A model generated the notes under the pieces. It made no database searches, was not told the origin of the DNA, and saw only the letters and a list, made by a program, of their open reading frames with translations. From positions 310,001 to 374,000 of the forward strand of contig NZ_CP043042.1 in the NCBI RefSeq assembly GCF_008122265.1: DNA of 64,000 nucleotides, given 5' to 3'. Below, piece by piece: positions 46,612-50,490 of the stretch. The stretch comes from Marinobacter fonticola. Its GTDB lineage: Bacteria; Pseudomonadota; Gammaproteobacteria; Pseudomonadales; Oleiphilaceae. The position numbers and the translations under genes are program-made. The number at the start of each line of letters is the position of its first letter. Position 1 is the first letter of the stretch.

Positions 46612-47835
46612 ATGTTTGAACTTTCCGAAAAGGCCCAGGCGCTACGCGAGCAAGTCATCGCGTTCATGGACGAGCACGTCTATCCCAACGAGCACCTGCA
46701 CCACGAGCAGATCGAGAAGGCCGAGAATCGCTGGGCGCCAACGGCCATCCTGGAGGAGCTGAAAGGCAAGGCCAAGGCCGCGGGCCTGTGGAATCTCTTT
46801 CTGCCGGAAAGCGACTACGGCGCCGGCCTGACCAATTTCGAATACGCCCACCTGTGCGAAATCATGGGGCGCTCCCATATGGCGCCAGAGGTGTTCAATT
46901 GCTCAGCGCCCGACACCGGCAACATGGAAACCATCGCCCGCTACGGTTCTCCTGAGCAGCAGAAACAGTGGTTGGAGCCGCTGCTGGCCGGTGAAATCCG
47001 CTCCTGCTTTTCTATGACCGAGCCGGGGGTGGCATCGTCGGACGCCACCAACATCAGCTGTGAAATCCGTCGCGACGGCGACGAGTACGTGATCAACGGC
47101 CGCAAATGGTGGTCCTCCGGCGCGATGACCACCACCTGCAAGATTGCCATCGTGATGGGCAAGACCGACGCCGGGGCGGAAAAGCATAAGCAGCAATCCA
47201 TGATCCTGGTGCCGCTGGATGCTCCGGGCGTGAAGATTATCCGCCCGCTGACCGTGTTCGGCTATGACCATGCACCCCACGGCCATGCGGAAATCGAATA
47301 CAACGATGTGCGGGTGCCGGCCAGCAACATGCTGCTGGGCGAGGGCCGTGGTTTCGAGATTGCTCAGGGCCGTTTGGGGCCGGGCCGCATTCACCACTGT
47401 ATGCGCACCATCGGCGTGGCCGAGCGCGCGCTGGAAGCCATGTGCCAGCGGGTCAACGAGCGTGAAGCGTTTGGCAAGCCGCTGGCCCAGTTCGACTCCA
47501 TCCGCAAGGATATCGCCCGCTCACGTATGGAAATCGAACAATGCCGCCTGCTGACCCTGAAGGCCGCACACATGATGGATACCGTGGGTAATAAGGTGGC
47601 GCGTCAGGAAATTGCCATGATCAAGGTCGCCGCGCCGAGTATGGCGTTGCGGGTGCTGGATCGCGCTATCCAGGTGCATGGCGCCATGGGCGTGTGTCAG
47701 GACTCCTTCCTGGCGGCGGCATGGGCGCAGGTGCGTACCCTGCGGCTGGCGGACGGTCCGGACGAGGTGCATTTGGACTCCATCGCCAAGTTGGAGCTCC
47801 GCAACTTTCCACAAACCCACTCTAAATCCCACTGA
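46612..47835 (+). CDS. Acyl-CoA dehydrogenase, ACAD10/11-like
   Basis: 407 residues. ACAD domains in order: N-terminal helices, middle strand domain with CFSMTEPGVASSDATNISCEIRRDGDEYVINGRKWWSSGA, and C-terminal helices with RIHHCMRTIGVAERALEAMCQRVNEREAFGKPL and VHGAMGVCQDSFLAAAWAQVRTLRLADGPDEVH. The TEPGVASSDATN and LADGPDEVH forms are those of the ACAD10/11 group. The usual catalytic Glu position reads Gln-Asp (VCQDSF). In ACAD10/11 and LvaC-type proteins this fold acts on phosphorylated 4-hydroxyacyl-CoA; the APH-like kinase gene two places downstream supports that. Confidence 0.9.
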   Translation: MFELSEKAQALREQVIAFMDEHVYPNEHLHHEQIEKAENRWAPTAILEELKGKAKAAGLWNLFLPESDYGAGLTNFEYAHLCEIMGRSHMAPEVFNCSAPDTGNMETIARYGSPEQQKQWLEPLLAGEIRSCFSMTEPGVASSDATNISCEIRRDGDEYVINGRKWWSSGAMTTTCKIAIVMGKTDAGAEKHKQQSMILVPLDAPGVKIIRPLTVFGYDHAPHGHAEIEYNDVRVPASNMLLGEGRGFEIAQGRLGPGRIHHCMRTIGVAERALEAMCQRVNEREAFGKPLAQFDSIRKDIARSRMEIEQCRLLTLKAAHMMDTVGNKVARQEIAMIKVAAPSMALRVLDRAIQVHGAMGVCQDSFLAAAWAQVRTLRLADGPDEVHLDSIAKLELRNFPQTHSKSH

Positions 47836-47850
47836 TCAGGAGCCCCGACC

Positions 47851-48618
47851 ATGACCAACCCATTGTTCGATATGACCGGCAAGGTGGCCTTGATCACCGG
47901 TTCCACCAAAGGTATCGGCCGTTCCATCGCCGAAGAGATGGCCCGCTGCGGCGCCAAAGTGGTGATTTCCAGCCGCAAGGCGGACGTTTGCGAGCAAGTC
48001 GCTGGCGAGCTGAAAGAGCAGGGCTTCGAGGCCATTGCCGTGCCTTGCCATGTGGGTCGTAAGGACGACCTGAAGAACCTGGTGGACAAGACCCTGGATG
48101 CCTTTGGCCAGATCGACGTACTGGTTTGCAATGCCGCCACCAACCCGGTTTACGGTCCGACTCAAGACATGACCGACGACGCCTGGGATAAGATCATGGA
48201 CACCAACGTCAAGGGCACCTTCTGGCTGACCCAGATGGTGCTGCCGCACATGGCCGAGCGCGGCGATGGCCAGGTGGTCCTGCTATCCAGCATCGCCGGC
48301 ATTCGCGGCAACACCGTGATCGGCACTTACGGCGTATCCAAGGCTGCGGAAGCGGCGCTGGCCCGTAACCTGGCGGTGGAGTGGGGCCCCAAGGGCATCC
48401 GCGTCAATTCGATTGCACCGGGCCTGGTCCGTACCGACTTTGCCAAAGCGCTGGTCGAGGACCCGGTTCGACTCAAACGGGTGGAAGAAAAGACACCCCT
48501 GCGCCGTATCGGCGAGCCGGTTGATATCGCCGGTCTGGCGGTATTCCTATCCACCAAGGCCAGCGCCTACATCACCGGACAGGTGATCGTGGCGGACGGC
48601 GGAGAGACCGTTGGCTGA
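47851..48618 (+). CDS. SDR-family dehydrogenase (2)
   Basis: 255 residues. ITGSTKGIGRSIAEEMA, CNAATNP, SSIAG, TYGVSKAAEAALARNLA and the end SAYITGQVIVADGGETVG. DHRS4/3-hydroxyacyl-type dehydrogenase group. It sits between the acyl-CoA dehydrogenase (15 bases before) and kinase genes, so it probably oxidises the 3-hydroxyacyl product. Confidence 0.92.
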   Translation: MTNPLFDMTGKVALITGSTKGIGRSIAEEMARCGAKVVISSRKADVCEQVAGELKEQGFEAIAVPCHVGRKDDLKNLVDKTLDAFGQIDVLVCNAATNPVYGPTQDMTDDAWDKIMDTNVKGTFWLTQMVLPHMAERGDGQVVLLSSIAGIRGNTVIGTYGVSKAAEAALARNLAVEWGPKGIRVNSIAPGLVRTDFAKALVEDPVRLKRVEEKTPLRRIGEPVDIAGLAVFLSTKASAYITGQVIVADGGETVG

Positions 48619-48625
48619 GGTGAGC

Positions 48626-49711
48626 ATGTCCGCTGTAGCGAATCTCGATCCACAACTGGTGGACGTCCTCGACGCCCACCGGTTCGACGCGCAGAAACTC
48701 AAGGGCTGGTTGCAGAATGCCATGCCCGATATTGGCGAGCGCCTCGACGTCAAGCAGTTCCAGGGTGGGCAATCCAACCCCACCTTCCTGCTGGACACCG
48801 ATAGCGGCCGCTATGTCCTGCGCAAGAAGCCGCCGGGAAAAACCCTGCCCTCCGCTCACATGGTGGAGCGTGAGTACAAGGTGATCCGGGCGCTGTCCGA
48901 TAACACCGATGTGCCTGTGCCCCGAGCCCGGGTCTTATGCGAGGACTCGGACATTATCGGCACGCCGTTCTATGTGATGGATTTCATGCCCGGGCGTGTT
49001 GTCAGTCATCCGGCACTGCGGGCGCTGGATCGTCACGAGCGCCGCCCGGTGCACGAAGCGGCCATAGACACCTTGGCACAGATGCACGCGGTGGATGTGA
49101 ATGCCGTTGGCCTGGGTGACTACGGCCGGCCGGAAGGCTACGTGGCCCGTCAGGTGGCCCGCTGGACCAAGCAGTATCAGGCCTCCAAGACCGACGACAT
49201 GCCGGCCATGGACAATCTGATGGCCTGGCTGCCGGATCACCTGCCTAAAATGGACGAGTGCGCCATCGCTCATGGCGACTACCGTCTCGGCAATCTGATG
49301 GTGGCTCCGGACAAGCCCGAGATCATTGCGATCCTGGACTGGGAGCTGTCCACCCTGGGCCACCCATTGGCGGACCTGGCGTACTACTGCTTGCCGTATC
49401 ACCTGCCGATGGATCTGGAAGGTTCCCGCGGGATCGTGGGCGAGGACCTGGAAGCCTTGAACATTCCGGACGAGCAGGAAGTGGTCGAGCGCTACTGCCG
49501 CCAGTCCGGTCGAACCGGTATCGATGATTGGCACGTGTTCCTGGCGTTCTCCTTGTTCCGCCTGGCGGCCATCGTCCAGGGCGTTTATGCCCGTGCGCTG
49601 CAGGGCAACGCTAGCAACGCCGATGCGCTCCAGGTGGGTAAGCGGGCCAGTATGCTGGCGGACGCCGGCTGGCGCATCGCCCAGAACGGTGCCAAGGGGG
49701 TGTCGGTGTGA
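48626..49711 (+). CDS. APH-like kinase of the ACAD10/11 type
   Basis: 361 residues from ATG 48626 (GAGGTG 5 bases upstream; a TTG at 48611 is less likely). Kinase fold: nucleotide-binding GGQSNPTFLLDTDSGRYVLRKKPPG with Lys pair, catalytic loop HGDYRLGN at ~216, and metal-binding DWELSTLGHPLADLAYY at ~238. This form is the N-terminal kinase of vertebrate ACAD11, here a separate gene. It should phosphorylate the hydroxyl of a hydroxyacyl-CoA. Stop overlaps the surE start by 4 bases (GTGA). Confidence 0.9.
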   Translation: MSAVANLDPQLVDVLDAHRFDAQKLKGWLQNAMPDIGERLDVKQFQGGQSNPTFLLDTDSGRYVLRKKPPGKTLPSAHMVEREYKVIRALSDNTDVPVPRARVLCEDSDIIGTPFYVMDFMPGRVVSHPALRALDRHERRPVHEAAIDTLAQMHAVDVNAVGLGDYGRPEGYVARQVARWTKQYQASKTDDMPAMDNLMAWLPDHLPKMDECAIAHGDYRLGNLMVAPDKPEIIAILDWELSTLGHPLADLAYYCLPYHLPMDLEGSRGIVGEDLEALNIPDEQEVVERYCRQSGRTGIDDWHVFLAFSLFRLAAIVQGVYARALQGNASNADALQVGKRASMLADAGWRIAQNGAKGVSV

Positions 49712-50490
49712 GCGACCCTATCGTACGCCGCATTCTGATTACCAATGACGACGGCATCAACGCGCCGGGTTTGGCCGTTCTTGAGCGGATTGCCCACAAG
49801 CTGGCGGAAGAAGTCTGGGTGGTGGCGCCGGAGCACGACCGCAGTGGTGCCGGGCAAAGCATTTCCATACATACGCCGTTGCGCTGCTATGCGCAGGATG
49901 ACAGCGGTCGCCGCTTTGCACTGTCGGGTACGCCGGCGGATTGCGTGCTGTTCGCCCAGGCGGAATGGTTTGGCGAAACGCTGCCGGACCTGGTGCTTTC
50001 CGGCGTCAACTGCGGCGCCAATATCAGCGATTCCGTGCAGTATTCCGGCACCGTCGGCGCGGTACTTACCGCGGAGCACCTGGGGATTCCCGCGATGGCC
50101 TTGAGCCAGGCGTTCCTCAACCGCGAGGGGATCGACTGGTCACCGGTGACCGAGCTGGGTGAGCGGGTGATCCGCGCCCTCTGGCGTCCTCGGGAACAGC
50201 CGACCTGTTGCTGGAATATCAATTTCCCCGCGTGTGCCGCCACTGACGTGAAGGATCTGCGCTGGGCTCGCCAGTCCAGCGGTTCGATCCAGCGCACCCA
50301 ACTACTGGCGGGACAGGACGGCCGCAGCTTGCCGTACTGGTGGCTAAGTTTTGAGCGCAGCTCGAAGCACATTGTGGCACCGGATATGGACGTTGCCGTA
50401 CTGCGTGATCATGCGGTGGCGGTAACGCCGCTGCGCAGCATGGCGCCGCTACCGGATGACGAGGCGAGCAGTCTGATCGCGAACGAATGA
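49708..50490 (+). CDS. surE: SurE-type 5'/3'-nucleotidase (phosphatase)
   Basis: 260 residues, GTG start overlapping the kinase gene. Metal-site residues are all present: ITNDDGINAPGL (Asp14, Asp15), SGAGQSISIH (Ser51) and SGVNCGANISDSVQYSGTVGA (Asn), followed by ALSQ. SurE normally dephosphorylates nucleotides and is found by pcm/rpoS; its place inside a catabolic operon, coupled to a kinase, suggests a paralogue with another job, such as cleaving a stalled phosphoacyl intermediate (inference). Confidence 0.92.
   Translation: MSDPIVRRILITNDDGINAPGLAVLERIAHKLAEEVWVVAPEHDRSGAGQSISIHTPLRCYAQDDSGRRFALSGTPADCVLFAQAEWFGETLPDLVLSGVNCGANISDSVQYSGTVGAVLTAEHLGIPAMALSQAFLNREGIDWSPVTELGERVIRALWRPREQPTCCWNINFPACAATDVKDLRWARQSSGSIQRTQLLAGQDGRSLPYWWLSFERSSKHIVAPDMDVAVLRDHAVAVTPLRSMAPLPDDEASSLIANE

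Follow-up and report, generated by a model that had tools for sequence, protein, structure and literature searches.

The closest described relatives of the gene cluster reported here, which lies in a 64,000-nucleotide stretch of the Marinobacter fonticola genome (NZ_CP043042.1, positions 310,001 to 374,000; hereafter the window), are the lva operons of Pseudomonas and the animal acyl-CoA dehydrogenases (ACADs) ACAD10 and ACAD11. LvaB, one of the lva proteins, is reported to interact with the kinase LvaA (PMC6692424). In P. citronellolis LA18T a histidine phosphatase gene is found close to the LvaA-like kinase gene, in place of LvaB, and a ligase gene lies close by on the opposite strand; the authors proposed that the phosphatase may remove phosphate from 4-phosphovaleryl-CoA (PMC6692424). 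ACAD10 contains a HAD domain that lacks one Asp of the DxD motif and has negligible phosphatase activity, yet mutation of this domain raises kinase activity; the ACAD10 kinase accepts the S isomer as well, at roughly one quarter of the R level (PMC11342911). A further report left the HAD domain unevaluated (PMC12440821). The M. fonticola cluster encodes an ACAD, a short-chain dehydrogenase/reductase (SDR), an APH-fold kinase and, directly after the kinase, a SurE-family phosphatase. It is real, conserved and well assigned.

Assignment of the pathway

The four genes follow one another tightly on the plus strand in this order, all within the interval 46612-50490 given by a preliminary description of the window (Table 1). 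The best matches of the ACAD among solved structures are the ACAD11 entries 8v3u (498 bits), 8v3v and 2wbi (E 2e-146 or lower), followed by 4hr3 (438 bits), while other ACADs score at most 147 bits. The usual catalytic Glu is indeed replaced, residue 381 being an Asp within the sequence LADGPDEV. The equivalent residue is Glu in short-chain ACAD (1jqi), Asp in ACAD11 and Asn in the ACAD11 entry 8v3v; exchange of the catalytic Asp for Asn gives an inactive ACAD11 mutant (PMC12440821). The 4-phosphate is held in ACAD11 by R626, H634 and R637, in the HCMR region (PMC12440821). R254, R259, H262 and R265 of the M. fonticola enzyme align with R626, R631, H634 and R637 of mouse ACAD11, and the segment RLGPGRIHHCMR at residues 254-265 contains the HCMR motif together with the upstream Arg. 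Both this phosphate-site motif and [LM]ADGPDEV, with Asp for Glu, are present in all 17 ACADs examined from the homologous clusters described below. The phosphate-site motif is absent from the two other ACADs of the window, at 60-62 kb.

Among solved structures the kinase is most similar to 3dxp (361 bits) and then to the kinase domain of ACAD11 (8v3v/8v3u, 280 bits). Its HGDYRLGN and LDWE motifs lie at residues 221 and 242, respectively, numbered from the TTG codon at 48611, though the ATG at 48626 is the more likely start. HGDxxxxN and DWE motifs are found in the kinases of all 19 cluster loci. The SDR between the two genes is predicted to be a 4-oxoacyl-CoA reductase/4-hydroxyacyl-CoA dehydrogenase. 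Because of the diagnostic residues and the closest solved relatives of the ACAD and the kinase, the route proposed in the preliminary description, phosphorylation of a 4-hydroxyacyl-CoA followed by elimination of the phosphate, is strongly supported at the level of sequence, and is our firm reading.

The SurE protein and its conservation

The SurE gene begins with a GTG codon that overlaps the kinase stop codon in the sequence GTGA, the coupling noted earlier. Its product scores above the cut-offs of both TIGR00087 (177 against 135.1 bits) and NF001490 (241.8 against 233 bits) and retains the active-site and metal-binding residues D14, D15, S46 and N101. A predicted model (pLDDT 90.5), used as confirmation of the fold only, is closest to 4zg5 (TM 0.84). 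Neither Pfam nor fold comparison gave a HAD match, and so no homology to the HAD domain of ACAD10 was found; any resemblance between the two would lie in their role.

Three SurE genes are present in the M. fonticola genome, including the copy in the window. A housekeeping gene is found elsewhere in a truD-surE-pcm setting (L004 7699-8448), preceded by TruD and followed by PCMT, an M23/LysM protein and a sigma-70 factor, as judged by Pfam. With this separate copy present, the idea that the window gene is a misplaced housekeeping surE was rejected. The third gene (L005 7700-8908) is an open reading frame (ORF) of about 400 amino acids, much longer than a usual SurE.

The genome search for kinase-SurE-ACAD clusters that had been suggested yielded at least 19 loci, the scan of named-species genomes covering the best 80 of 585 SurE relatives. 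The order SDR-kinase-SurE-ligase is found in 19 of 19, and an ACAD lies directly upstream in 17. In the other two (L024 and L036) there is no such ACAD within the fetched stretch, and ACADs are present elsewhere in the genome of L024 (G080). Two pairs of loci are near-duplicates (L023/L033 and L021/L031). Within the order to which M. fonticola belongs, 8 of 145 genomes, its own included, contain a SurE relative at E<=1e-50; seven of these adjoin a kinase gene, and the eighth (in G136) shares its contig with a kinase-ACAD pair at a distance of about 25 kb. Eleven of the best 80 loci of the named-species scan (L029-L038 and L076) share the gene order: seven from Marinobacter, two from Stutzerimonas, one from a record named Endozoicomonas and one from a Lysobacterales metagenome-assembled genome. 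All ten loci among these 80 with at least 57% SurE identity are of this kind. One further cluster (L121) came from a class-wide kinase search. SurE identity to the window copy falls to 45% across the cluster loci, which span several families. In the SurE search of 229 genomes of the class, the next full-length matches among those listed are at most 41% identical, and a 130-residue piece reaches 46%. Restriction of the cluster to close relatives, named beforehand as an outcome that would count against the idea, is rejected because loci occur in Marinobacter, Stutzerimonas and further families. Taken together, these findings support SurE being dedicated to the cluster and conserved within it. 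Many of the loci L039-L070 (Burkholderiales, Pseudomonas and others) contain a SurE that is 42-48% identical, with no pcm or kinase matched nearby, and inspection by eye of the genes at 8 of the 69 non-cluster loci gave no clue to a pathway.

Inspection of a SurE tree revealed that the 19 cluster proteins and the orphan of G136 form a clade of 20 with support 100/100, in which 19 members adjoin a kinase. Short tandem repeats, read as ORFs, lie beside the orphan gene (L025 9006-9687). Pairwise SurE distances track those of the kinase (r=0.974), the ligase (0.953) and the ACAD (0.908; 17 loci, without L024 and L036), which reflects joint inheritance, not interaction. In a kinase tree of 59 of the 61 sequences (two pieces shorter than 250 amino acids were dropped), all 19 SurE-paired kinases group together (fork support 92/75), a single change relative to the other labelled sequences, while kinases paired with a histidine phosphatase require at least two changes. 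L076 in the SurE tree and L028 in the kinase tree are long branches of unsure place. Gain of SurE thus looks like a single event. At least 13 of the 19 loci permit overlap of the kinase stop and SurE start, the nearest likely start otherwise lying about 9-105 bases downstream, so translational coupling is common, not universal.

All three SurE active-site motif patterns are kept in 18 of the 19 cluster proteins, L076 departing in two. By a set criterion, the 18 core cluster proteins differ from 70 other SurEs at 11 positions (L076 and L025 were placed in neither group). Position 50 is Gln in the cluster proteins, while it is His in 64 of the 70 others and Gln in one; position 109 is Ser, in contrast to the Asp or Glu of 69 of the 70. 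Gln50 is shared by L076 and the orphan (L025), whose residues at position 109 are Thr and Ala, respectively. With numbering transferred via the aligned Ser, position 50 falls within the active-site loop of Salmonella SurE, residues 39-51 (PMC3567009). These clade-specific changes, including H50Q and D/E109S, despite the kept catalytic residues make an altered substrate plausible from sequence. Characterised SurE enzymes are nucleotidases active on nucleoside monophosphates (NMPs), and 5'-nucleotidases, SurE included, can have broad substrate ranges (PMC8475336). SurE is a dedicated accessory that probably acts on, or senses, the product of the kinase.

Kinase partners and the role of SurE

The M. 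fonticola genome contains three kinase-ACAD pairs, and the partner of the kinase differs each time. At C1:1256260-1259426, genes for an ACAD, an SDR and a kinase are followed by a PF00300 histidine-phosphatase-family gene that overlaps the end of the kinase gene by one base (L027 12465-13154; C1:1259465-1260151). No ligase was matched within the 20-kb stretch around this pair. The third partner is a DUF6285 protein, a family which we take, also from size and position, to be that of LvaB. Its gene (C1:2228255) stands with an ACAD and a kinase at C1:2228893-2230829, a divergent kinase-ACAD pair (L028 9237-12045, approximately C1:2228237-2231045) with its own ligase and Liv-like importer. This is the sole DUF6285 match in the genome and lies 1.87 Mb from the window cluster, which bears out the earlier remark that no LvaB-like gene is seen beside the window kinase. 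Such an absence is not unusual, since the P. citronellolis cluster likewise yielded no LvaB (PMC6692424).

The histidine-phosphatase-like partner recurs more widely. A kinase of the LvaA/ACAD10 type is present in 27 of the 229 class genomes (E<=1e-50) and a histidine phosphatase of the L027 type in 15 (E<=1e-20), all of which also carry the kinase (hypergeometric 1.5e-16, or 1.2e-15 without the M. fonticola genome, values overstated because the genomes are related). The two genes lie within 2.2 kb of one another in 11 of the 15 genomes and not in the other four. They also adjoin on a Sulfitobacter plasmid and a Burkholderia multivorans plasmid. Of the 226 plasmid records with a kinase match, the kinase neighbourhoods of 12 were read (two are nearly unannotated and were read by ORF comparison); two of the 12 contain a histidine phosphatase, none contains SurE, and ten contain neither. 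The second His of histidine phosphatases is catalytic. In all 17 distinct sequences aligned (from L027, L117, L120 and L151-L164) it is replaced by Ser, and 16 of them retain RHG; the three PDB relatives aligned by profile search have the canonical His, a search with a single sequence having given no PDB match. The possibility that other phosphatases lie beside most of the kinases was rejected: in 26 unassigned ORFs, chosen by eye and mostly nearest the kinase, from 29 class-level loci, there was no phosphatase among the 25 Pfam families listed (of 37). With animal ACAD10 included, this kinase family is paired with three unrelated phosphatase folds: HAD, histidine phosphatase and SurE.

We tentatively favour the following mechanism, to which we give slightly less than an even chance. 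The operon would degrade an imported acid via a 4-hydroxyacyl-CoA: the ligase would make the CoA ester, the SDR would set the 4-hydroxy group, and the APH kinase would phosphorylate it. The Asp-type ACAD would then use its flavin to eliminate the phosphate, as shown for its relatives, and the resulting 2-enoyl-CoA would enter beta-oxidation. SurE, made next to the kinase, may act as a safety valve that hydrolyses phospho-products unused by the eliminase, whether of the wrong stereoisomer, chain or position or simply in excess; hydroxyacyl-CoA or hydroxy acid would thereby be regained and the trapping of CoA and phosphate avoided. Since the surroundings of the L027 pair of histidine phosphatase and kinase gave no ligase match within 20 kb, the kinase product would be the common factor. 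Generalised, 4-hydroxyacyl-CoA kinases might need a phosphatase-fold partner that senses or clears phospho-acyl-CoA, a recurrent checkpoint arrived at at least three times by unrelated folds. This is a stronger claim than that for the single cluster and open to test; we hold it possible but somewhat doubtful.

Several points weigh against hydrolysis of kinase products by SurE. With what looks like a single gain, the 19 loci are not independent evidence. The short flanks of 30 of 59 kinases contain neither phosphatase (three of these, L131, L141 and L143, do have a histidine phosphatase gene within 2.2 kb), so the chemistry can proceed without such a partner. Were a phosphatase to act on the productive intermediate, ATP would be spent to no purpose. 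The histidine-phosphatase partner, missing its second catalytic His, may not hydrolyse anything, and the activity of SurE is itself a prediction from sequence. Further, SurE adjoins the ligase as well as the kinase and its characterised homologues are nucleotidases (PMC8475336), and a ligase gene is also found near the P. citronellolis histidine phosphatase (PMC6692424).

Two other roles for SurE deserve consideration, though each seems unlikely. In one, SurE is a product sensor or regulatory partner that binds the phospho-product and restrains the kinase, its hydrolytic activity secondary or lost, and that fills the place of LvaB. This arises because the HAD domain of ACAD10 and the Ser-for-His family both depart at catalytic residues and the HAD domain still restrains the kinase, with negligible phosphatase activity of its own (PMC11342911). 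The retention of RHG in the Ser-for-His proteins, the reported LvaB-LvaA interaction (PMC6692424) and the different partner of each kinase in the genome are also consistent with it. The cluster SurEs, however, nearly all keep their active-site motifs, and gaps of 60-105 bases between kinase and SurE genes in L024, L026 and L121 speak against a strict need for coupled synthesis.

In the other, of similarly low probability, SurE is an ordinary 5'/3'-nucleotidase that clears the AMP released by the ligase, pulling activation forward and feeding adenosine salvage. The known activity of SurE on NMPs (PMC8475336), the ligase directly after SurE in 19 of 19 loci and the NCBIfam cut-offs reached by the protein all suit such a role. 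The genome, however, already has a housekeeping surE, and the window protein shows clade-specific changes both within and near the active-site loop. To our knowledge, acyl-CoA ligases generally work without a dedicated nucleotidase. The histidine-phosphatase-kinase pair of L027, with no ligase match within 20 kb, also counts against this role.

SurE might instead work elsewhere in the pathway and independently of the kinase step, for instance on an imported phosphorylated substrate or a by-product, given the broad substrate ranges of 5'-nucleotidases (PMC8475336) and the importers in the operon region; we consider this very unlikely, as no gene points to a phosphorylated substrate and the tight linkage is to the kinase. 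Least probable is that SurE merely travels with the operon, for although its single clade, single gain and non-independent loci would allow chance co-transfer, its position is conserved over several families down to 45% identity, and 19 of the 20 clade members lie beside the kinase, the exception retaining a kinase-ACAD pair about 25 kb away.

Should such a checkpoint indeed exist, it would explain a recurring phosphatase-like part beside an enzyme that makes phospho-acyl-CoA, in bacteria and in animal ACAD10. It would also provide a bacterial system of separate genes whose control step lends itself to deletion and assay, and possibly a part for the engineered use of levulinate and lactones.

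Gene neighbourhood and comparison with described systems

The two SDRs and two CoA ligases listed in the preliminary description are present (Table 1). The second SDR and a hotdog-fold thioesterase precede the ACAD gene, and the ligase ORF follows SurE after 49 bases. The importer, of the branched-chain-amino-acid (Liv) type, likely takes up the pathway substrate or a related acid; in 7 of the 19 cluster stretches the ligase gene is followed by its first permease gene. MaoC, aldolase and ACAD genes also adjoin the cluster in several Marinobacter loci, such as L029-L031 and L035.

Table 1. Features of the cluster and its surroundings in the window.
Feature	Position	Strand	Basis
ACAD10/11-LvaC-type acyl-CoA dehydrogenase, predicted 4-phosphoacyl-CoA eliminase	46612..47835	+	PDB matches, Asp381, phosphate-site residues
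SDR oxidoreductase, LvaD position	47851..48618	+	PF13561
APH-fold kinase, ACAD10/11-LvaA type, predicted 4-hydroxyacyl-CoA kinase	48611..49711	+	PF01636
SurE-family phosphatase, own paralogue clade	49708..50490	+	PF01975; TIGR00087 and NF001490 above cut-off
GTGA 4-base start/stop overlap, kinase/SurE	49708..49711	+	
AMP-forming acyl-CoA ligase, next gene after SurE	50540..52210	+	NF006181 above cut-off
Second SDR	45218..46003	+	PF13561
Hotdog-fold (PaaI-like) thioesterase	46003..46476	+	TIGR00369 above cut-off
Second acyl-CoA ligase	43340..44929	-	PF00501
Enoyl-CoA hydratase/isomerase	42593..43333	+	PF00378
Liv-type ABC importer: two permeases, two ATPases, binding protein	52557..57178	+	PF02653 x2, PF00005 x2, PF13458
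MaoC hydratase, zinc-type reductase, class II aldolase, two further ACADs	57347..62357	.	downstream genes

Three further observations concern the surroundings. The direct repeat ctatagatagaaggYg occurs twice at 46533-46564, within the 135-base gap that precedes the ACAD gene, and is perhaps regulatory. TRAP transporter genes and genes for two methyl-accepting chemotaxis proteins (32246-40726) stand beside the catabolic genes and possibly serve to sense and import the same acids. An ADP-ribosylglycohydrolase-family gene (PF03747; 8254-9438, minus strand) has a second importer of the branched-chain type in its vicinity, at 12.2-15.8 kb.

The preliminary description had called the SurE phosphatase new to such clusters and its control or proofreading step undescribed. 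SurE as the type of phosphatase does stand as new, while another type in the same position is already in print (PMC6692424). The second claim was partly right: removal of phosphate by a histidine phosphatase had been proposed (PMC6692424) and a kinase-restraining HAD domain reported (PMC11342911). Because of these two precedents the kinase-phosphatase pairing is not wholly new, and SurE is a new variant of it. The open-access literature in PMC yielded nothing further bearing on SurE with such kinase clusters.

In comparison with animal ACAD10 and ACAD11, the window ACAD finds its closest solved relative in ACAD11, which ranks second for the window kinase, and the catalytic Asp, the HCMR motif and the upstream Arg are common to both systems. 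Kinase and ACAD are fused in the animal enzymes, whereas they are separate genes here; ACAD10, too, has a phosphatase-fold domain beside its kinase, but this is a HAD domain, while SurE is of an unrelated fold with its active-site residues kept. The lva operon of P. putida likewise encodes a ligase, an SDR, an APH kinase and an ACAD with the same predicted chemistry (PMC6692424, PMC12440821, PMC11342911), with SurE here instead of LvaB. The lva-like cluster of P. citronellolis shares with the present one a phosphatase-family gene near the kinase and likewise had no LvaB found in it, its phosphatase belonging to the histidine phosphatase family and not to SurE (PMC6692424). Finally, the window SurE has the fold, active-site residues and family models of the housekeeping enzymes known from Salmonella, Thermotoga, Thermus and Brucella structures, but differs from them in its separate clade, its place in a catabolic operon, and Q50 and S109.

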